Part shown: in pieces, positions 2,347 through 10,822 of the stretch
Position numbering within the stretch: position 1 is the first letter of the stretch
Layout of the letters: the number at the start of each line of letters is the position of its first letter
Source: Mesorhizobium shangrilense
Lineage (GTDB): Bacteria > Pseudomonadota > Alphaproteobacteria > Rhizobiales > Rhizobiaceae
DNA: 64,000 bases
Assembly: GCF_028826155.1 (NCBI RefSeq)
Contig: NZ_JAQGPN010000001.1
Coordinates: 2,671,501-2,735,500 of the forward strand
Direction of reading: 5' to 3'
Position numbers and translations under genes: made by a program
Notes under the pieces: model-generated
What the model was told of the DNA's origin: nothing
Databases searched by the model: none
Seen by the model: only the letters and a program-made list of their open reading frames with translations

Positions 2347-3144
2347 ATGTATTCGGTCAACTATCATCGGGCCTCCTCGGTTTCGGGGGCGGCCAAGCTC
2401 GCCAAGGGCGGAGACGCCAAGTTCCTGGCGGGCGGCATGACGCTCATCCCGGCCATGAAGACGCGGCTCGCCGCGCCTTCGGACGTCATCGACCTGACCC
2501 ACATCGACGCGCTCAAGGGCATCAGCGTGTCGGGCAAGTCGGTGACGATCGGCGCGGCGACGACCCATGCCGAGGTGGCAAGCGACGCCAAGCTCAGGAA
2601 GGCGATTCCCGCGCTGGCAAGTCTCGCATCCCTCATTGGCGACCCGCATGTGCGCCACCGAGGGACGATCGGCGGCTCGATCGCCAACAACGATCCGGCG
2701 GCCGACTATCCGGCGGCGATGCTGGCGCTCGCCGCCACCATCGTCACCAACAAGCGCGAGATCCCTGCCGACAAGTTCTTCAAGGGCCTGTTCGAGACGG
2801 CGCTGAAGGACGATGAGATCGTGACTGCCGTCACGTTCACCGTTCCTGCCAAGTCGGGCTACTCGAAATTCCCGAATCCTGCCTCTCGTTACGCCATGAC
2901 CGGCGTCTTCGTGACCAAGGACAAAGCGGGCGTGCGGGCCGCGGTGACGGGCGCCGGCGACAACGGCGTCTTCCGCTCGAAGGAGATCGAGGCCGCCCTG
3001 GCGAAGAAGTTCGACGCGGCTGCGCTCGACGGGGTCAAGGTGCCGTCGAAGAACCTCATGGGCGACATCCACGCCTCGCCGGAGTACCGCGCCAATCTCG
3101 TCGCGGTCATGGCGAAGCGGGCGGTCGCAGCCGCCAACGCCTGA
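2347..3144 (+). CDS. coxM: CO-dehydrogenase-like FAD-binding medium subunit
   Basis: 265-residue FAD-binding subunit of the same molybdenum hydroxylase. It carries the two flavin-binding motifs of the CoxM/XDH-B family: AGGMTLIP near residue 28 and TIGGSIANNDPAADYPAA near residue 106. It would pass electrons from the iron-sulfur subunit to quinone or another acceptor. The ATG is preceded by a strong GAGGAGGGG ribosome binding site and lies 12 bases after the coxL stop, so the two genes are co-transcribed. A terminator hairpin follows directly, so coxM is the last gene of this operon. Confidence 0.92.
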   Translation: MYSVNYHRASSVSGAAKLAKGGDAKFLAGGMTLIPAMKTRLAAPSDVIDLTHIDALKGISVSGKSVTIGAATTHAEVASDAKLRKAIPALASLASLIGDPHVRHRGTIGGSIANNDPAADYPAAMLALAATIVTNKREIPADKFFKGLFETALKDDEIVTAVTFTVPAKSGYSKFPNPASRYAMTGVFVTKDKAGVRAAVTGAGDNGVFRSKEIEAALAKKFDAAALDGVKVPSKNLMGDIHASPEYRANLVAVMAKRAVAAANA

Positions 3145-3157
3145 CATCAGGGCATTG

Positions 3158-3194
3158 ACGAGGCGGCCGGCACGCACCGGCCGCTTCGTTTGTT
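3158..3194 (+). terminator. Rho-independent terminator after coxM
   Basis: A 13-base-pair stem (3158-3170 with 3177-3189, one G-U pair) closes a six-base loop and is followed by a short T-rich stretch. It sits 14 bases after the coxM stop and separates the cox operon from the convergent SRPBCC gene. Confidence 0.75.
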
Positions 3195-3246
3195 CCCATT
3201 CCGGAGGGGCAGCATTTGCGGGCCGGATAGCGCCTGCCAACACGGC

Positions 3247-3738
3247 CTATCCGGCCGATCCGGATTCGCGCCGCTTCGCAAGGTAGCGTCGCAGACCAGC
3301 TTCGCCGCGCGGCGTCGTCCAGCGATGGTTCCAGGCAAAGGCCGGTCGCAACAGGGGCGAGAAGAATTTCAGGATCGGGCGCTCTACGATGACCTGCCAG
3401 GTCAGCTCGACGCGCGTGCCACCGTTCTCGGGGAAGAGATTTGCGGTCCACAGGCCGTCGAAGTCGCCATAGGTCTTCACGACGACCTTGCGGCCCGGCT
3501 CGAGTTCGGCGGCTTCGATGATGAAATTCAGCTCGTAGGGCAGGGCGCCGCGCGCCCGCGCCTTCGACCGTGCCCCAACCTGCCCCTTGCCGAGGTCGTT
3601 GAGCGGGGTGACTTCCCTGTAGACGTCGCCCCACCATTCGGGCAGCAGTGCCGCGTCCGAGAGCACGTCCCAGACCTCACCGGGCGCCGCTTCGGGGATG
3701 CGCCAGACCTCGTCGAAACGGAACACGTTGCTCGGCAT
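3247..3738 (-). CDS. SRPBCC (START-like) family protein
   Basis: 163-residue protein of the SRPBCC/polyketide-cyclase ligand-binding fold. Visible features are the N-terminal [16 protein letters not shown] segment typical of the first strand and helix, an acidic-aromatic PEWWGDVY stretch, and the C-terminal helix ([11 protein letters not shown]). No enzymatic residues are diagnostic, so ligand and role are unknown. It is convergent to coxM, behind that operon's terminator, and does not look like CoxG. The same-strand GNAT gene ends 47 bases upstream. Confidence 0.8.
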
Positions 3739-3762
3739 GAAACCTCACACGAGGTTCGCCCG

Positions 3763-3789
3763 CCCCTGGTTTCAGCCCCCTGGTTTCAG
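3763..3789. repeat. 14-base tandem duplication across the GNAT stop codon
   Basis: Two adjacent copies of CCCCTGGTTTCAG (3763-3775 and 3777-3789) occur between the SRPBCC start and the GNAT end. The right copy contains the GNAT stop codon (TGA on the minus strand, 3788-3786), so the left copy is a duplicated stop-proximal segment. Confidence 0.7.
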
Positions 3790-4268
3790 TCCTTCAGCGA
3801 CCGCTCAAAATACCGCACCGTCTTCGTCCCGTCTCCCAGGGATGCGCTGCCGACCTCGAAAAATCCCAGCGCGGCATGGAAGGCGTCCGAACCGGGATTG
3901 GGCGGGTCCAGGTTGACCTCGCAGGTCACCACCTCGTGCCCGGCCATTCGCGCCGCTGCAAACAGGTTCTCGTAGAAACGCCGCGCGATGCCGCGCCCGC
4001 GGGCATGGGCGGCAACCGCGACCCTGTCGACGTAGACGAAACGCGGATAGCGTTCGCGGAACCAGACGAAGTTCGGGCTGTCGTAGTCCGCCGTCTGGTC
4101 GAAGGCGAGGATGAAGCCGTCGAGGCTGCCGACGCGGCGCGCATGGAATGCCTGGCCAATGAGGTGCGAAAGGCGCTCCGGTTCGAGCCAGGAGAGCTCG
4201 GCCGCATGCTCGTTGTTGAGCGCCAGCACTGCCGCTTCGTCACCCGGGGAGATCGCTTCGATGGTCAT
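3786..4268 (-). CDS. GNAT family N-acetyltransferase
   Basis: 160-residue acetyltransferase of the GCN5-related family, using acetyl-CoA on an unknown amine. The acetyl-CoA pyrophosphate-binding motif is visible as VDRVAVAAHARGRGIARRFYE (the R-G-R-G-I-A loop), followed by the EVNLDPPNPGSDAFHAALGF motif B region. The start at 4268 is chosen because ATG overlaps the cutC stop as ATGA, showing translational coupling to cutC. A longer in-frame reading exists upstream but would be buried in cutC. Confidence 0.85.
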   Translation of the reverse strand: MTIEAISPGDEAAVLALNNEHAAELSWLEPERLSHLIGQAFHARRVGSLDGFILAFDQTADYDSPNFVWFRERYPRFVYVDRVAVAAHARGRGIARRFYENLFAAARMAGHEVVTCEVNLDPPNPGSDAFHAALGFFEVGSASLGDGTKTVRYFERSLKD

Positions 4269-5020
4269 GCCCGGCGCGCCGCTGCAATGGTCGCCGCGAC
4301 CAGTTCGCGGTCGGTGACCGTGTTGCGGTACTCCCGGTCGAGTTCGGTACCGCCCATGCCGACCTGCGCATTGCGGTAGGTCATCGCGCTCGGCAGCTCG
4401 CGGGGCGCTGCGAAGTGGATCTCGGGCAGCCCTGTCCTTTCCAGCAGCTGCGCCACGTTTTCCGGCCGCAGGCCCCCGCAGCCCATGATGGCGATTCGCC
4501 CGGCCGCCCGGCGCACGAGTTCGGCAAGCAGGTCCGCGCCTTCCATCGCGGTGTCCCGCTGGCCGCTGGTGAGCACGCGCCCGACACCGCAGCGAACGAG
4601 CGCCTCGAGCGCTTCGATCGGGTCGCGGGTCATGTCGAAGGCGCGGTGGCAGGTGACGGCGAGCGGCCCGGCCGCCTCGACCAGCGCGCGCATACGCGGC
4701 TCGTCGACCGTACCGTCCGCCGCGAGGCAGCCGATCACGACGCCGGCGACGCCGAGTTGCCGGCAAGCCTCGACATCGGCAACCATCGAGAGGAATTCGG
4801 CTTCCGAATAGAGAAAATCCCCGCCACGCGGGCGGATGATCACGTGGAAGGGGATGGTCGCGACGGCAAGCGCGCCGCGGATCGTGCCGATGCTCGGCGT
4901 GATGCCGCCCTCCAGCAGGCTGGCGCAGAGCTCAACCCGGTCTGCGCCGCCCTCCTGGGCAGCAACGAGGCCGTCGATGCCTTCGACGCAAATTTCGACC
5001 AGGGGAAGAGGTGCTGTCAT
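4265..5020 (-). CDS. cutC: Copper homeostasis protein CutC
   Basis: 251-residue CutC family TIM-barrel protein. Typical segments are LVEICVEGIDGLVAAQEGGADRVELC at the N-terminus, the HVIIRPRGGDFLYSE strand, VTCHRAFDM, and VLTSGQ with IMGCGGL toward the C-terminus. The family was named from copper sensitivity of E. coli mutants, but its biochemical role remains unclear. Start at 5020 (M-T-A-P-L-P-L) is supported by an AGAAGG site five bases upstream. It is the first gene of a two-gene unit with the GNAT gene. Confidence 0.92.
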   Translation of the reverse strand: MTAPLPLVEICVEGIDGLVAAQEGGADRVELCASLLEGGITPSIGTIRGALAVATIPFHVIIRPRGGDFLYSEAEFLSMVADVEACRQLGVAGVVIGCLAADGTVDEPRMRALVEAAGPLAVTCHRAFDMTRDPIEALEALVRCGVGRVLTSGQRDTAMEGADLLAELVRRAAGRIAIMGCGGLRPENVAQLLERTGLPEIHFAAPRELPSAMTYRNAQVGMGGTELDREYRNTVTDRELVAATIAAARRA

Positions 5021-5461
5021 GATTGCCTTCTGACGAAACGGGAGCGGCACATGAGCACTGCCGGTCTGCCGGGTCAACCGACGAGCTTGGCGCACGGGAA
5101 AGAGCCCGGATGCGGTGACCGCCGTCGTGGCTCCTGCCGGCTGACAGTCTGCCGGATGGTATGCTTGGCGGCCCCGTTGCCGTGCATGAAGGTTTGCGTT
5201 GCATGGTTGGGCGGGCTGCCGTGACGTGGCGGATAGGCGCCCAACGACGCAATGCTAGACCCATTCCGTGACCCACCGGACAAGTGCCCAACCGCAATGC
5301 TGGGCGCGTTCCGCAGCGCGGCAGGCAAGCGGCCAACTGCGCAACGAGAGATCCTCGGCGATTGCCATTCGCCGCCTCCCACACCCCGGCCTCGAAACGA
5401 GGCGCGGGAACGATCTCGCATGGAAGGCTTTTGCACGATGTGCAAAGATTCCCGGCTCCAG
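5021..5461. other. Intergenic region between cutC and the ECF42 module
   Basis: About 440 bases between divergent cutC and the sigma-factor module. The frames here encode low-complexity arginine/serine-rich peptides without recognisable domains or good ribosome binding sites. Apart from the bipartite promoter that begins at 5462, I see no gene or structured RNA. Confidence 0.5.
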
Positions 5462-5493
5462 TGTCGGCATGCCGCTGGCGCCCACGTCCTAGT
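5462..5493 (+). promoter_or_regulatory. Putative ECF42 sigma promoter upstream of the YciI/DGPF gene
   Basis: TGTCGG at 5462-5467, 17 bases, then CGTCCTAGT at 5485-5493, 19 bases ahead of the start codon. The same two elements with the same 17-base spacing recur at 7167-7198 ahead of the VOC gene. The TGTCG -35 and CGTC -10 elements agree with what I recall for ECF42-group promoters, so autoregulation by the adjacent sigma factor is likely. Confidence 0.7.
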
Positions 5494-5511
5494 CACAGAA
5501 CGGGATCATCC

Positions 5512-5886
5512 ATGCTCTACGCCATCCTCTGCTACAATTCGGAAGACGTTGTCTGCTCCTGGACGAAGGAACAAGACGACGCCACGATGGAACGGCTCGG
5601 ACGAGTGGAGGACAAGCTGGCCAGGGCCGGGCGACTCGGGCCGGGCGCCAGACTGCTGCCGACCAGTGCGGCGACGACGCTGCGCAAGACCAGGTCCGAT
5701 CCGATCGTCATCGACGGCCCCTTCGCCGAGACCAAGGAGCAGTTGCTCGGCTTCTACGTCATCGACTGCAAGTCGCTCGACGAGGCGCTGGAGACGGCGC
5801 GCGAACTCGCCGCCGCCAACCCTGACACCGGCTCCTACGAGATCCGGCCGCTCGCCCTCTTCCACCCTGGCATCGGACTCTCATGA
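5512..5886 (+). CDS. YciI/DGPF-domain protein of an ECF42 module
   Basis: 124-residue YCII-superfamily protein with the DGPF motif (V-I-D-G-P-F-A-E-T-K-E near residue 67) that gives this group its name, in a dimeric ferredoxin-like fold. DGPF proteins are the standard genomic partners of ECF42 sigma factors; their activity is unknown. The ATG at 5512 begins the conserved MLYAILCYN segment. The stop overlaps the sigma-factor start as ATGA (5883-5886). A matching bipartite promoter lies directly upstream. Confidence 0.9.
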   Translation: MLYAILCYNSEDVVCSWTKEQDDATMERLGRVEDKLARAGRLGPGARLLPTSAATTLRKTRSDPIVIDGPFAETKEQLLGFYVIDCKSLDEALETARELAAANPDTGSYEIRPLALFHPGIGLS

Positions 5887-7151
5887 GCGACCTCGACTAT
5901 CTCGATGCGACCCTTGCGACCGCGCGCCCACAGGCGGTCGCGGCGCTCCTGCGCTATTTCCGCGACCTCGACACGGCGGAGGAGGCCTATCAGGAGGCGT
6001 GCCTCAGGGCGCTCAGGACCTGGCCGAAGAACGGCCCGCCGCGTGATCCCGTCGCCTGGCTGATCTTCGTCGGCCGCAACGTCGCCATCGACGCCGTGCG
6101 CAAGAAGGCGCGGCAGGCGCCGATGCCGCCCGAGGAGGCGGTGTCCGACCTGGAGGACGCCGAGGGCAACATTGCGGACCGTCTGGACAATGCCGACTAC
6201 CGCGACGACGTGCTGCGGCTCCTGTTCATCTGCTGCCATCCCGACCTGCCGTCCACCCAACAGATCGCGCTCGCGTTGCGCATCGTCTCCGGCCTGTCGG
6301 TGAGGCAGATCGCACGCGCCTTCCTCGTCTCCGAGAGCGCGATGGAGCAGCGCATCACGCGGGCCAAGGCACGCATCGCGCAGGCCAACGTCCCGTTCGA
6401 GACACCGGGTCCGGTGGAACGCAGCGAGCGGCTGGGGGCTGTCGCGGCCATGGCCTACCTGGTTTTCAACGAAGGTTACTCGGCCAGCGGCGGCGGCGCC
6501 GAGCCAATGCGCGCGCAGCTCTGCGACGAGGCGATCAGGCTGGGCCGCCTGCTGCTCAAAATGTTCCAGACCGAACCTGAGATCATGGGGCTGCTCGCGC
6601 TCATGCTGCTGCAGCACTCGCGCACCCCGGCGCGCTTCGATGCCAATGGCGAGATCGTGCTTCTCGAACAGCAGGACAGGTCGCTGTGGAGCCGCCCTAT
6701 GATCACCGAGGGGCTGGCGCTCATCGACAAGGCCATGCGCCACCAGCAGCCGGGTCCCTATCTCGTGCAGGCGGCGATCGCCGCCCTCCATTCGCGGGCG
6801 GCCAGGCCCGAGGATACCGACTGGGAGCAGATCGATCTGCTCTACGGCACGCTCGAGGTGCTGCAGCCGTCGCCCGTGATCACGCTCAACCGCGCGGTCG
6901 CCGTCTCGAAGGCGAGGGGACCGGAGGAGGCGCTCGCCATGATCGAGCCGCTGGCAAGGCAGCTTTCCGGCTACTTCCACTTCTTCGGCGTCAAGGGGAA
7001 CCTTTTGATGCAACTCGGCCGCGACCGCGAGGCCCGCACCGCCTTCGACCAGGCGATCGCCCTTGCCAACAGTCCGGCCGAGGCCTCGCACATCAGGATG
7101 CACCTCGACCGCCTCATGACGGAGGGAGCGCGCTCCAAAGCTTCATCCTGA
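5883..7151 (+). CDS. ECF42-group RNA polymerase sigma factor
   Basis: 422-residue extracytoplasmic-function sigma factor with a long C-terminal extension. Region 2 is around residues 15-80 (YFRDLDTAEEAYQEACL and DPVAWLIFVGRN), and region 4 is around residues 120-165 (ALRIVSGLSVRQIARAFLVSE). The extension of some 240 residues (AMAYLVFNEGYSASGG onward) resembles the TPR-like domain of ECF42 proteins, which replaces a classical anti-sigma factor. Translationally coupled to the DGPF gene. The twin upstream promoters suggest it drives both this operon and the following VOC gene. Confidence 0.92.
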   Translation: MSDLDYLDATLATARPQAVAALLRYFRDLDTAEEAYQEACLRALRTWPKNGPPRDPVAWLIFVGRNVAIDAVRKKARQAPMPPEEAVSDLEDAEGNIADRLDNADYRDDVLRLLFICCHPDLPSTQQIALALRIVSGLSVRQIARAFLVSESAMEQRITRAKARIAQANVPFETPGPVERSERLGAVAAMAYLVFNEGYSASGGGAEPMRAQLCDEAIRLGRLLLKMFQTEPEIMGLLALMLLQHSRTPARFDANGEIVLLEQQDRSLWSRPMITEGLALIDKAMRHQQPGPYLVQAAIAALHSRAARPEDTDWEQIDLLYGTLEVLQPSPVITLNRAVAVSKARGPEEALAMIEPLARQLSGYFHFFGVKGNLLMQLGRDREARTAFDQAIALANSPAEASHIRMHLDRLMTEGARSKASS

Positions 7152-7166
7152 GATTGTTGGAGGGCA

Positions 7167-7198
7167 TGTCGGGAGGCGCGCACACCGAACGTCCTAGT
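7167..7198 (+). promoter_or_regulatory. Second putative ECF42 promoter, upstream of the VOC gene
   Basis: TGTCGG at 7167-7172, 17 bases, CGTCCTAGT at 7190-7198: identical elements and spacing to the promoter at 5462. The spacers differ in sequence, so the match is not a recent duplication. It lies 16 bases past the sigma-factor stop and 30 bases before the VOC start codon. Confidence 0.7.
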
Positions 7199-7227
7199 TG
7201 CGGACCAGTTCAAGAGGAGAGAGAAAA

Positions 7228-7631
7228 ATGGCCAATGAAATGCCGAACAGCCCGATGACCGGCGTCATCCCTGCCGTCAGTCTCGCCGATGCCAACGACG
7301 CTTTCGACTACTACGCCAGGGCGCTGGGGGCCAAGCAGATCGACCGCCGTCTGACCGACGACGGGCGCGTCATGTACGGTCAGGTCGAGATCAATGGTGG
7401 CGCCTTCATGTTAACGACGCTTTCCCGGAACACGGCATGGCATTGCAGCCGACCCAGAACGTCGTCATGCATCTCGTGGTGGACGATGCCGGACCCTGGT
7501 GGAAGCGGGCGATGGACGCCGGCTTCGAGATCGCGATGCCGCTTGAGCTTGCCTTCTGGGGAGATTTCTACGGCCAGATGAAGGACAAGTTCGGCATCAC
7601 CTGGGCCGTCGTCTCGTCGAAGAACAGCTGA
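7228..7631 (+). pseudogene. VOC (PhnB/glyoxalase-like) family gene with a single-base frameshift
   Basis: The first 61 codons (M-A-N-E-M-P through GGAFM) read as a PhnB-like VOC domain after an AGAGGAGAGAG site. The frame then fails near 7411. The continuation N-D-A-F-P-E-H-G-M-A-L-Q-P and the C-terminal part (V-V-M-H-L-V-V-D-D-A to the stop at 7631) lie one frame over. Restoring one base at about 7411-7412 gives a full-length protein of about 134 residues. Either this is a true inactivating deletion or a sequencing error. VOC genes are common members of ECF42 operons, and this one has its own matching promoter. Confidence 0.85.
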
Positions 7632-7759
7632 TCGCGCGTTAGGCGTTTCACGCCGGCCTTCGTCGTGGGCCAAGGGTGACGCCGATACCGCAATGCGATA
7701 CCTTGGCGCAGAAACGGGATCTCGCCGATCCGGCGCAAGTTTTTGCGACACAAGGAAAA

Positions 7760-8758
7760 ATGAACAATTACAATCGCTTCCGCCTATCCATTGCGCCGAT
7801 GATGGACTGGACTGACAGGCATTGCCGCTTTCTTCATCGCCAATTGACGCAGCGGGCGCTGCTCTATACGGAGATGGTGGTTGCCGACGCGGTGATCCAT
7901 GGTCCGCGGGAGCGTCTGCTTGGCTTCGACGACGTGGAGCATCCCGTCGCGCTGCAGCTTGGCGGTTCGGAGCCGGAGAAGTTGGCTGCGGCCGCCCGGA
8001 TCGGCGCGTCCTTTGGCTATGACGAGATCAACCTGAACGTCGGCTGTCCGTCCGACCGCGTTCAGTCCGGAACCTTCGGCGCCTGCCTTATGCGCACGCC
8101 CGGTCTGGTCGCCGACTGCGTCGCCGCGATGAAGGCGGAGGTCGGCGTGCCGGTGACCGTGAAATGCCGGATCGGCGTCGACGATCAGGATCCCGAGATC
8201 GCGCTGGACGAGGTTGCAGAGCGCGTTTTCGCAGCGGGCGCGGACGCGCTTTGGGTGCACGCGCGCAAGGCGTGGCTTCAGGGTCTAAGTCCCAAGGAAA
8301 ACCGGGATATCCCGCCGCTCGACTACGATCGCGTCTATAGGTTGAAGAGCAAATATCCGAATCGATTCATTGGGATCAACGGCGGTATTCAAACTCTGGT
8401 CGAGGCGCGCGACCATCTGTTGCACACCGATGGCGTCATGCTCGGACGCGCCGCTTACCATGCGCCGGCCATGCTGGCGACCGTCGATCGGGACATTTTC
8501 GGCGTATCTGCGGATCCGGTCGAGTTGGGAGCCGTGATCGAAGCGATGGCGCACTATGCAGCGCGCCACATCGCGGCCGGCGGTCGACTGGGGCATGTCA
8601 CGCGTCACATGGTCGGGCTGTTCCACGGTTTCCCCGGCGCGCGCCGGTATCGGCAGATCCTCTCCACGGACGCGACGCGGCCGGGCGCGGGACCGGAAGT
8701 GCTGCTCAGCGCCTTCGCCGCGGTCGACCTTTCTGCGGCGGACACAGTCGCCGCGTAA
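7760..8758 (+). CDS. dusA: tRNA-dihydrouridine synthase A
   Basis: 332-residue flavoprotein that reduces uridines in the tRNA D-loop. The N-terminal SIAPMMDWTDRHCRF is the DusA FMN-binding start. The catalytic cysteine sits in EINLNVGCPSDRVQSGTFGACLM. The FMN phosphate site is GINGGIQ and VMLGRAAY. The ATG at 7760 is chosen because the conserved region starts nine residues later and AAGGAAAA lies directly upstream; longer readings have no support. Convergent with the aspartic protease gene, nine bases apart. Confidence 0.95.
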   Translation: MNNYNRFRLSIAPMMDWTDRHCRFLHRQLTQRALLYTEMVVADAVIHGPRERLLGFDDVEHPVALQLGGSEPEKLAAAARIGASFGYDEINLNVGCPSDRVQSGTFGACLMRTPGLVADCVAAMKAEVGVPVTVKCRIGVDDQDPEIALDEVAERVFAAGADALWVHARKAWLQGLSPKENRDIPPLDYDRVYRLKSKYPNRFIGINGGIQTLVEARDHLLHTDGVMLGRAAYHAPAMLATVDRDIFGVSADPVELGAVIEAMAHYAARHIAAGGRLGHVTRHMVGLFHGFPGARRYRQILSTDATRPGAGPEVLLSAFAAVDLSAADTVAA

Positions 8759-8767
8759 GGCCGCCGG

Positions 8768-9478
8768 TCAGTCGCGCAGGATCATGCGGTCGCCGCGGAT
8801 GTCGAAGCCCGACAAGGTGCCGATGAAGTTCATGCCGAGCAGGCTCTGGTCCAGCATCCCGTCGGAGGCCACCAAAGCGGGGATCTTCCTTCGTGATATC
8901 GCCCCGACGCTGAGGTCGTCCAAGACGATGCGGGCGGCGAGCGCCTGACCGTTCGCCGTGGAAATCGGGATCTGGAACGCCAGCGACGCCGTGTCGATGC
9001 CGACGCGGCTCGCGTCGCGCGTCGTCAGCACGGTGGTCGTCGCGCCCGTATCGATCATCATCTGCACGGAGCGGCCGTTCACCTGCGTCTGAGCTTCGAA
9101 ATGACCGTTGGGCAGCTTGTCCAGCATCACGGTCGTGCCGCCGTGGGCGTCGGTGATGGAGAGGGGGCTGCCGGGAACCAGTCCTGCGGTCACCCGGCTC
9201 GCAAAATCCTGCAGTTCGTAGCGATATTGGTAGCTGGCGACGAGCGCCAAGATGATCAGCGCCCACAGCGCGAGGCTGCGCGCCAGGTCGCCCAGCCGGC
9301 GGCCGGATCCCAGGATGCCTGCGGCGATCACCAGCCCCAGGATGGTGAGATAGATGCCCTGGCCGAGGCCGTCATCGCCCGAGAATTCCGCGTCGGACAT
9401 GGTGTCGCGCGCGACCAGGAAGATGGCGGCAGCGCCGATCAATCCCAGGATGATCCACAAAAACCGCCCGCCCGTCAT
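8768..9478 (-). CDS. TIGR02281-type clan AA retropepsin-like aspartic protease, membrane-anchored
   Basis: 236 residues with two N-terminal membrane helices (about 5-22 and 42-60) and perhaps a third (68-83), followed by a soluble retroviral-protease-like domain. The catalytic triad is MMIDTGATTTVL near residue 142. A second family motif is LLGMNFIGTLSGFDI near the C-terminus. Such proteins are common in alphaproteobacteria; substrates are unknown. It starts three bases after the DUF1289 gene and is probably co-transcribed with it. Confidence 0.88.
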   Translation of the reverse strand: MTGGRFLWIILGLIGAAAIFLVARDTMSDAEFSGDDGLGQGIYLTILGLVIAAGILGSGRRLGDLARSLALWALIILALVASYQYRYELQDFASRVTAGLVPGSPLSITDAHGGTTVMLDKLPNGHFEAQTQVNGRSVQMMIDTGATTTVLTTRDASRVGIDTASLAFQIPISTANGQALAARIVLDDLSVGAISRRKIPALVASDGMLDQSLLGMNFIGTLSGFDIRGDRMILRD

Positions 9479-9481
9479 TGG

Positions 9482-9715
9482 TCAGGATTGCTCCGAGCGT
9501 TCGCGCGCCATGCGGGTGCGCCGCGTTTCCCTTCGCGGCGGGCGCTCCACCGTCTGAAGCCGGGCCGGTAGCTCGGCCATGACGGCGCGACGTGTCTCCG
9601 GCGTCATCGCGATCCAGCCTGATATCTCGTCGCGCGTGCGCCCGCAGCCGAAGCAATAGCCGGTCTTCATGTCGATGGAGCAGACCAGTATGCAGGGGGA
9701 TTCGATCAGCGACAT
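9482..9715 (-). CDS. DUF1289 domain-containing protein
   Basis: 77-residue protein with the conserved cysteine pattern of DUF1289: SPCILVCSIDMKTGYCFGCGRTRDEI, a likely four-cysteine metal site, then a basic C-terminal tail. Function unknown. The start at 9715 (M-S-L-I-E-S-P-C) places the conserved motif at the N-terminus as in the family. Upstream and divergent is cobT; downstream is the TIGR02281 protease. This trio is a frequent rhizobial arrangement as I recall it. Confidence 0.85.
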   Translation of the reverse strand: MSLIESPCILVCSIDMKTGYCFGCGRTRDEISGWIAMTPETRRAVMAELPARLQTVERPPRRETRRTRMARERSEQS

Positions 9716-9844
9716 TGTATTCCCGAGAGCGCCGATCCCACATGGGGCACAGCCGGCTGCAATGCAAGCCTCGGATGAAATGCGCAATTGTGCCTTTCGG
9801 CCGTGGCGACTATGGCTGCGTCCAAACTCTCTGGATGACGCCTC

Positions 9845-10822
9845 ATGACGACCGCACTGCCTTTCGACGATTTCCGCTCCCTGCTCGACAATCTGCCCGG
9901 CGCCGATACGGCTGGGGCCGAGCGCGTGCGCGACATGTTCAAGCGGCGGGGCGTATCCCGCTCGCTCGCTCCGATCGTCGAGCTTGCCGCCTGGCTGGGC
10001 GCCTGGAGCGGCAGGCCTCCCGCAGTCACACGGCCGGTCGTCGCAATCTTCGCCGGCACGCATGGCGTGACGCAGCGCGAGGTTTCGCCGCGCCCCGCAT
10101 CGCCGACCCAGGAAGCCGTCGAGATGCTTGCGGCCGGCGGCGCGGCCGTCAATCAGGTCTGCCTTGCGCATGATCTCGGTCTGAAGGTGTTCGACCTGGC
10201 GCTCGACCTGCCGACCGAGGACATCAGCGTCGAGGCTGCGCTCGATGAGAAGGGCTGCGCCGCGACCATGGCGTTTGGCATGGAAGCCATCGCCGGCGGC
10301 ATGGATCTGGTATGCGTCGGAGATCTGGCGAACGGCAATTCCACCGTTGCGGCGGCGCTGTTCGCCGCGACGCTGGGCGGCAAGGGCGCGGACTGGGCCG
10401 CAGCCGAACACGGCGTCGATCAGGCGACGGCAGTCGGCCGCATCGACGCCGCGCTGGCGCTGCACGGCGCACATCTGAGGGATCCGTTCGAGGCGTTGCG
10501 CCGCGTCGGCGGGCGGGAGTTTGCGGCGATTGCCGGGGCGATCCTGGCGGCGCGGATGGAAAAGATTCCGGTCATCATCGACGGCTTCGCTGCCACTGCC
10601 GCCGCTGCCGTGCTCCATCGCGCCAATCCTGGTGCGCTAGACCATTGCCGCCTTGCGTGTCTTTCGAACGAGCCGTCGCACCTCCGCGCTGCGGAGCGTC
10701 TGGGCCTGCGCCCGATTCTCGGGCTGCCGTTCGGCGAGCCGGGTGTCGGGGGAGGGCTGGCGGCCGGTGTCGTCAAGGCCGCGGCGCTGACCTACTCGGG
10801 GATGGCAGCGGCGCTGACGTAG
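9845..10822 (+). CDS. cobT: Nicotinate-nucleotide--dimethylbenzimidazole phosphoribosyltransferase
   Basis: 325-residue CobT, which makes alpha-ribazole phosphate for the lower ligand of cobalamin. Visible motifs are IFAGTHGVTQREVSP near residue 69, the glycine-rich VGDLANGNSTVAAALF segment, IIDGFAATAAAAVLH, and LPFGEPGVGGGLAAG near the end with the glutamate expected as general base. It is monocistronic here. The B12-dependent reductase gene nrdJ is elsewhere in the window, so the cell likely both makes or salvages and uses cobalamin. No cobalamin riboswitch is visible in the 129-base upstream gap. Confidence 0.93.
   Translation: MTTALPFDDFRSLLDNLPGADTAGAERVRDMFKRRGVSRSLAPIVELAAWLGAWSGRPPAVTRPVVAIFAGTHGVTQREVSPRPASPTQEAVEMLAAGGAAVNQVCLAHDLGLKVFDLALDLPTEDISVEAALDEKGCAATMAFGMEAIAGGMDLVCVGDLANGNSTVAAALFAATLGGKGADWAAAEHGVDQATAVGRIDAALALHGAHLRDPFEALRRVGGREFAAIAGAILAARMEKIPVIIDGFAATAAAAVLHRANPGALDHCRLACLSNEPSHLRAAERLGLRPILGLPFGEPGVGGGLAAGVVKAAALTYSGMAAALT

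Follow-up and report, generated by a model that had tools for sequence, protein, structure and literature searches.

An ECF42 sigma factor clade in Hyphomicrobiales is accompanied by a shared promoter signature and a predicted dispersed regulon in Mesorhizobium shangrilense

Results

Two identical promoter-like elements flank the gene of an ECF42 sigma factor in Mesorhizobium shangrilense, and their core, TGTCGG-N17-CGTCCT, appears to follow the sigma gene of one clade (at least 63% identity) from genome to genome, a pattern supported by comparison across the order. It is very probable that these sites are promoters read by this sigma factor, whose predicted regulon is scattered and comprises its own operon, the gene in the slot directly behind it, and five distant promoters. 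Positions refer to the window (the whole 64,000-nucleotide stretch of DNA that was analysed) except where they carry the prefix C1; the features are collected in Table 1.

Table 1. Predicted promoters and associated genes of the ECF42 module, and matching sites elsewhere in the genome
Feature	Position	Strand	Details
A/T-rich tract, UP-element-like	5444..5451	+	6/8 A/T; 11-18 bases before first -35
Predicted ECF42 promoter 1	5462..5493	+	-35 TGTCGG 5462-5467, 17-base spacer, -10 CGTCCT(AGT) 5485-5493
YCII/DGPF-family gene	5512..5886	+	124 aa; Pfam YCII E 6.4e-20
ECF42-type sigma factor gene	5883..7151	+	422 aa; sigma region 2, region 4, DUF6596, TPR-like C-terminal part
A/T tract position before second -35	7149..7156	+	5/8 A/T; overlaps sigma stop codon
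Predicted ECF42 promoter 2	7167..7198	+	-35 TGTCGG 7167-7172, 17 bases, CGTCCT(AGT) 7190-7198
Slot gene, VOC/glyoxalase-like	7228..7631	+	Frame broken near 7410; tblastn pieces in frames 2 and 1
Site at DoxX_2 gene	C1:737004	-	Exact motif match
Site at distant VOC gene	C1:1556494	+	Exact motif match
Site at DUF6958 gene	C1:1607012	+	Exact motif match
Site at DUF1428 gene, then FAA hydrolase	C1:4198996	-	Exact motif match
Site at AHSA1 gene	C1:4584207	+	Exact motif match

The sigma factor module and its twin elements

The stop codon of the YCII/DGPF-family gene shares a 4-base ATGA overlap with the start of the sigma gene, and the YCII protein matches the structure of PA1349 (1s7i). The sigma factor displays the characters by which ECF42 proteins are recognized: ECF sigma regions 2 and 4 (Pfam Sigma70_r2 and Sigma70_r4_2; NCBIfam sigma70-ECF), a TPR-rich C-terminal extension of ~200 residues (DUF6596 at residues 183 to 285, E 9e-35, and TPR matches in residues 348 to 411 that score below the curated Pfam cut-offs), an adjoining YCII/DGPF gene, and target promoters of the form TGTCG(A/G) / CG(A/T)C, as taken by the window elements. 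Its profile matches five solved structures, four over the sigma part and one over a short C-terminal stretch. Examination of the neighbours from 2347 to 10822 (small ORFs covered in part) revealed no anti-sigma gene; this region has matches to FAD_binding_5, SRPBCC, GNAT, CutC, Dus, aspartyl protease, and DBI_PRT.

The VOC gene behind promoter 2 is not intact, owing either to a true mutation or to an assembly error. Two of the three homologues used align to it by tblastn as two pieces in different frames, and the third aligns to the second piece only; this second piece (7413-7631) matches Pfam Glyoxalase (E 1e-06), and the 117-residue ORF from 7228 has no Pfam match. Promoter 2 itself is intact although the gene behind it is broken. 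In Pseudaminobacter soli, the VOC gene occupying the same slot (locus coordinates 5377-5769) contains an in-frame TAG, read by eye, which is a different lesion from the frameshift near 7410.

The initial annotation had described two identical elements, TGTCGG followed after exactly 17 bases by CGTCCTAGT, one on either side of the sigma gene, and a pattern search of the window recovers TGTCGG-N17-CGTCCTAGT twice on the plus strand in just this arrangement. This 15-letter pattern is absent from 100 dinucleotide shuffles of the window, versus 2 copies in the window itself. The looser TGTCGG-N15-19-CGTC has 5 matches against 1.82 expected, so much of the signal resides in the CCT extension. An SRPBCC-type gene (Polyketide_cyc2/AHSA1) also lies near the module (3247-3738, minus strand), and the window search found no TGTCGG-N15-19-CGTC match in its vicinity.

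Conservation in orthologous loci

Occurrences of TGTCGG-Nk-CGTC (k from 10 to 25) were counted 300 to 650 bases before the sigma start (upstream) and from 60 bases before to 150 bases after the sigma stop (downstream) in 80 named loci, the best 80 of 188. Comparison of orthologous loci, a check proposed in the initial annotation, shows that the element recurs: within these best 80 of 188, 72 loci have a 17-base spacer upstream, ahead of the YCII gene, and 43 have one behind the sigma gene. No other k exceeds 2 loci upstream or 3 downstream, and the reversed pattern never exceeds 1. The eight exceptions upstream comprise one locus with an 18-base spacer, two with the site further upstream, and five with none. 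The sigma gene follows a YCII-like gene in all 80 (again the best 80 of 188), and the two overlap by 4 bases in 56. The base after CGTC is C in 69% of the 72 upstream and 95% of the 43 downstream sites, and the core conserved in relatives is TGTCGG-N17-CGTCCT; the letters that follow vary in relatives, which places the AGT common to both window elements outside the core.

An A/T tract, which was not used in choosing sites, lies 18 to 11 bases before the -35 (positions -18 to -11) and reaches 0.94 bits at -13/-12 over the 72 upstream sites. Its A/T fraction is 0.84 in the 43 slot promoters (versus 0.34 to 0.38 in the flanks) and 0.58 in the 80 regulon sites described below (versus 0.41 in 20 control sites; p 0.006). 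On this compositional evidence, the tract is a predicted third promoter element. A perfect 17-base palindrome, TTTGCAC-GAT-GTGCAAA, is situated at 5430-5446, 15 bases before the -35, where 0.12 matches within two mismatches would be expected in the window. As a conserved operator it was rejected, being present within 4 mismatches in only 1 of 72 loci.

The signature and the sigma gene across genomes

We sorted 199 genomes of the order by their best match to the sigma protein, with the reversed motif serving as control. In the 38 genomes whose ortholog reaches 63% identity or more (a cut placed after a gap seen in the data), there are 249 exact TGTCGG-N17-CGTCCT sites versus 25 for the control, or 1.145 versus 0.115 per Mb, figures that are to be read with the relatedness of the survey genomes and the overlap between the genome sample and the named ortholog loci in mind. 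Each of these 38 genomes has at least one exact site. The seven genomes at 49 to 56% identity show 14 sites versus 4 (0.43 versus 0.12 per Mb), and in the remaining 154 the motif is at background, with 14 sites versus 20 in the 42 genomes having only ECF42s of at most 48% identity and 50 versus 48 in the 112 genomes without a sigma match. Thirteen families include genomes both with and without the ortholog, and in every one of them mean density is higher with it, though only 0.19 versus 0.10 in one family.

Genes behind the sites in relatives

Eighty of the 249 sites were examined, from 11 sigma-bearing genomes (one of which is represented by 6 of its 10 sites). These stand a median of 38 bases before start codons, and matches among the genes behind them, given for 25 of 64 families, include YCII (10), RibD_C (8), 3-dmu-9_3-mt (6), AHSA1 (6), DUF1428 (5), Glyoxalase (5), DUF899 (4), MFS_1 (4), Abhydrolase_1 (4), and DoxX_2 (3), counts that can overlap and that retain one locus with a wrong frame and two with doubtful frames. 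For comparison, genomes that lack an ECF42 or have only distant ones supplied 20 of their 64 sites, which were handled in the same manner. Of these, 19 gave a protein, and none of the 19 belongs to YCII, RibD_C, 3-dmu, AHSA1, DUF1428, Glyoxalase, DUF899, MFS_1, Abhydrolase_1, or DoxX_2. One control protein matched HlyD families, as do 2 of the 80 target sites.

The gene directly behind the sigma gene was surveyed in 43 loci and matched AHSA1 in 19, Glyoxalase in 11, SnoaL_3 in 7, Polyketide_cyc2 in 5, and DUF899 in 4 (family counts that may overlap); with its family varying in this way, this position acts as a slot whose contents are exchangeable. For DUF1428, a family present in 83 of the 199 genomes, the 30 best-scoring loci were compared. 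Within two mismatches, the motif is present ahead of the DUF1428 gene in 9 of the 14 sigma-plus genomes, none of the 14 sigma-minus genomes (Fisher p 0.0006 for these two groups), and neither of the 2 at ~50% identity; it sits 61 to 90 bases before the domain start, and 5 of the 14 genes in sigma-plus genomes are without it.

Sites in the M. shangrilense genome

The initial annotation had offered the element as a search pattern for a regulon, and in this capacity it works: the exact core occurs at 8 sites in the 5.55-Mb genome, versus 1 for the reversed control and ~0.65 expected at the background of ~0.12 per Mb, and is thus not randomly scattered. Seven of the eight stand before genes, two of them in the window. 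The remaining one (C1:973334) falls within a long coding frame and is regarded as a chance match. The five distant sites are ~30 bases before their genes, except at the VOC gene (~73 bases), for which the choice of start codon is uncertain. At each of the five, the first gene has a motif-bearing homologue in another family, with best matches of 53 to 70% identity; for the FAA hydrolase behind DUF1428, no motif-bearing homologue was found in genomes of other families. Allowing one mismatch brings the count to 46, close to the 45 of the reversed control, which leaves weaker sites impossible to call.

A second ECF42 in the same genome

Another ECF42 sigma factor, with 40% identity to the window sigma, is encoded behind its own YCII gene at C1:441774-442913 (minus strand). 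Its operon has TGTCGA-N17-CGACAT, and TGTCGA-N17-CGWCAT occurs at a single site in the genome, at this operon. Twenty paralogue loci of relatives, all at or below 48% identity, have TGTCGA-N17-CG[AT]C in 13 cases, TGTCGT-N17-CGAC in 1, and neither in 6, and TGTCGG in none of the 20. Because paralogue operons show TGTCGA and never TGTCGG, the two ECF42 factors probably read different promoters. The -35 of Streptomyces ECF42 is reportedly TGTCGA (a result attributed to Liu, 2018); this form, described for Streptomyces venezuelae, differs from the TGTCGG of the present clade and has the same letters as the -35 of the second M. shangrilense ECF42.

Discussion

Comparison across genomes supports the predicted promoter structure, its tie to the sigma clade, and the set of target families. 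The A/T tract, the broken state of the VOC gene, and the second ECF42 with a different promoter come in addition to what the initial annotation described. How far the sites depend on the window sigma factor can be judged against three other explanations. The initial annotation took this module to be exactly what the sigma factor controls, in which case the distant sites would be chance matches. Such a restricted role would fit the modest excess of loose TGTCGG-N15-19-CGTC sites genome-wide (29 versus 16 for the control), the background level of one-mismatch sites, and the presence of one exact site in a coding frame, but it does not account for the number of exact-core sites, 8 where ~0.65 are expected, nor for the five further sites elsewhere, which precede genes of matching families; homologues of these genes in other families have the site as well. 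With the same signal before five distant genes, a scattered gene set is probable, rather than neighbours alone; moreover, Sinorhizobium meliloti has a distant target, SMb20475 (PMC6180224). Confinement to the module is thus very unlikely.

Slightly less improbable, though still very unlikely, is that recognition of the TGTCGG sites falls to the ECF42 paralogue, alone or alongside the window sigma factor. A second ECF42 is indeed present in the same genome, and both -35 elements begin with TGTCG and both spacers are 17 bases long; against this, genomes with only ECF42s of at most 48% identity lack any excess of the TGTCGG motif, paralogue operons in relatives have TGTCGA rather than TGTCGG, and the single TGTCGA-N17-CGWCAT site in M. 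shangrilense is the paralogue's own. The motif might also be the binding site of a co-inherited transcription factor, a reading compatible with the sequence taken alone and with the 17-base palindrome beside promoter 1. The fixed 17-base spacing, the position of the 80 sites relative to start codons, the A/T tract upstream, and the same letters in mapped S. meliloti promoters (PMC6180224) all speak against it, as does the lack of conservation of the palindrome, and we regard it as extremely improbable.

Under the preferred reading, in which the window ECF42 reads the sites, a promoter would consist of the A/T tract, the -35 TGTCGG, 17 bases, and the -10 CGTCCT. The sigma factor would be made together with the YCII protein from an operon bearing this promoter and would direct RNA polymerase to its own operon, to the slot gene, and to five further promoters in its own genome, those of DoxX_2, VOC, DUF6958, DUF1428 plus FAA hydrolase, and AHSA1 genes. 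The TPR part and the YCII protein may together form the activity switch: in a review (PMC8999054), the TPR extension is described as essential for activity in the ECF42 proteins studied, and the YCII protein is suggested to take part in regulation. For this strain, activity of the promoters, their positive control by the sigma factor, autoregulation, and a signal are elements that we infer. A role in detoxification or a chemical-stress response is likely, since the targets belong mostly to families that bind or convert small molecules.

The closest known system is RpoE10, an ECF42 of S. meliloti, which shares with the present module the order YCII gene, sigma gene, target gene, the TGTCGG-N17-CGTC element before both the YCII gene and the target gene (there SMc01149), a distant target of the glyoxalase type, and the lack of an identified anti-sigma gene (PMC6180224). 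As described there, the promoter before SMc01151 (YCII) was located by 5'-RACE, with the motif overlapping the mapped start, and those before SMc01149 and SMb20475 come from earlier RNA-seq; a derivative of the laboratory strain Rm1021 that lacks ECF sigma genes is also described. RpoE10 overexpression raised SMc01149-SMc01148 and SMb20475-SMb20474 and left SMc01151, the YCII-sigma operon, without response despite its motif (PMC6180224), which makes autoregulation doubtful. In contrast to RpoE10, M. shangrilense has a larger predicted regulon of seven promoters, a broken VOC gene in the slot, and another ECF42 that has a promoter to itself. Further afield, the Streptomyces venezuelae ECF42s (Sven_0747, Sven_7131, and Sven_4377) likewise have a TPR-rich C-terminal extension and a YCII/DGPF gene nearby (PMC8999054), and Pseudomonas putida ECF-10, also an ECF42 with a similar neighbourhood, has a stress phenotype (PMC8999054, PMC6180224).

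The RpoE10 module having been published for S. meliloti (PMC6180224), the twin-promoter arrangement is already known; what is new is the comparative regulon and the separation of the paralogues, and not the module itself. A literature search, with most subscription papers outside its scope, found no paper defining this regulon across genomes, which is weak evidence of its novelty.

More broadly, it seems fairly likely that this Hyphomicrobiales ECF42 clade acts as a regulon commander and not as a local switch: through a -35 of its own, TGTCGG, it would drive as many as ~15 scattered promoters, belonging to families about which little is known (YCII, DUF1428, DUF899, AHSA1/SRPBCC, VOC, RibD_C, SnoaL-like, DoxX, and DUF6958). 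The slot behind the sigma gene would hold exchangeable cargo, and a second ECF42 in the same cell, kept apart by TGTCGA/CGAC, would serve only its own operon. Two ECF42 factors in one genome with different -35 letters would offer a ready system for studying promoter discrimination. The predicted regulon would tie families of unknown function (DUF1428, DUF899, DUF6958, and YCII) to one response, and a sharp promoter signature that accompanies the sigma gene from one genome to the next makes this regulon testable.
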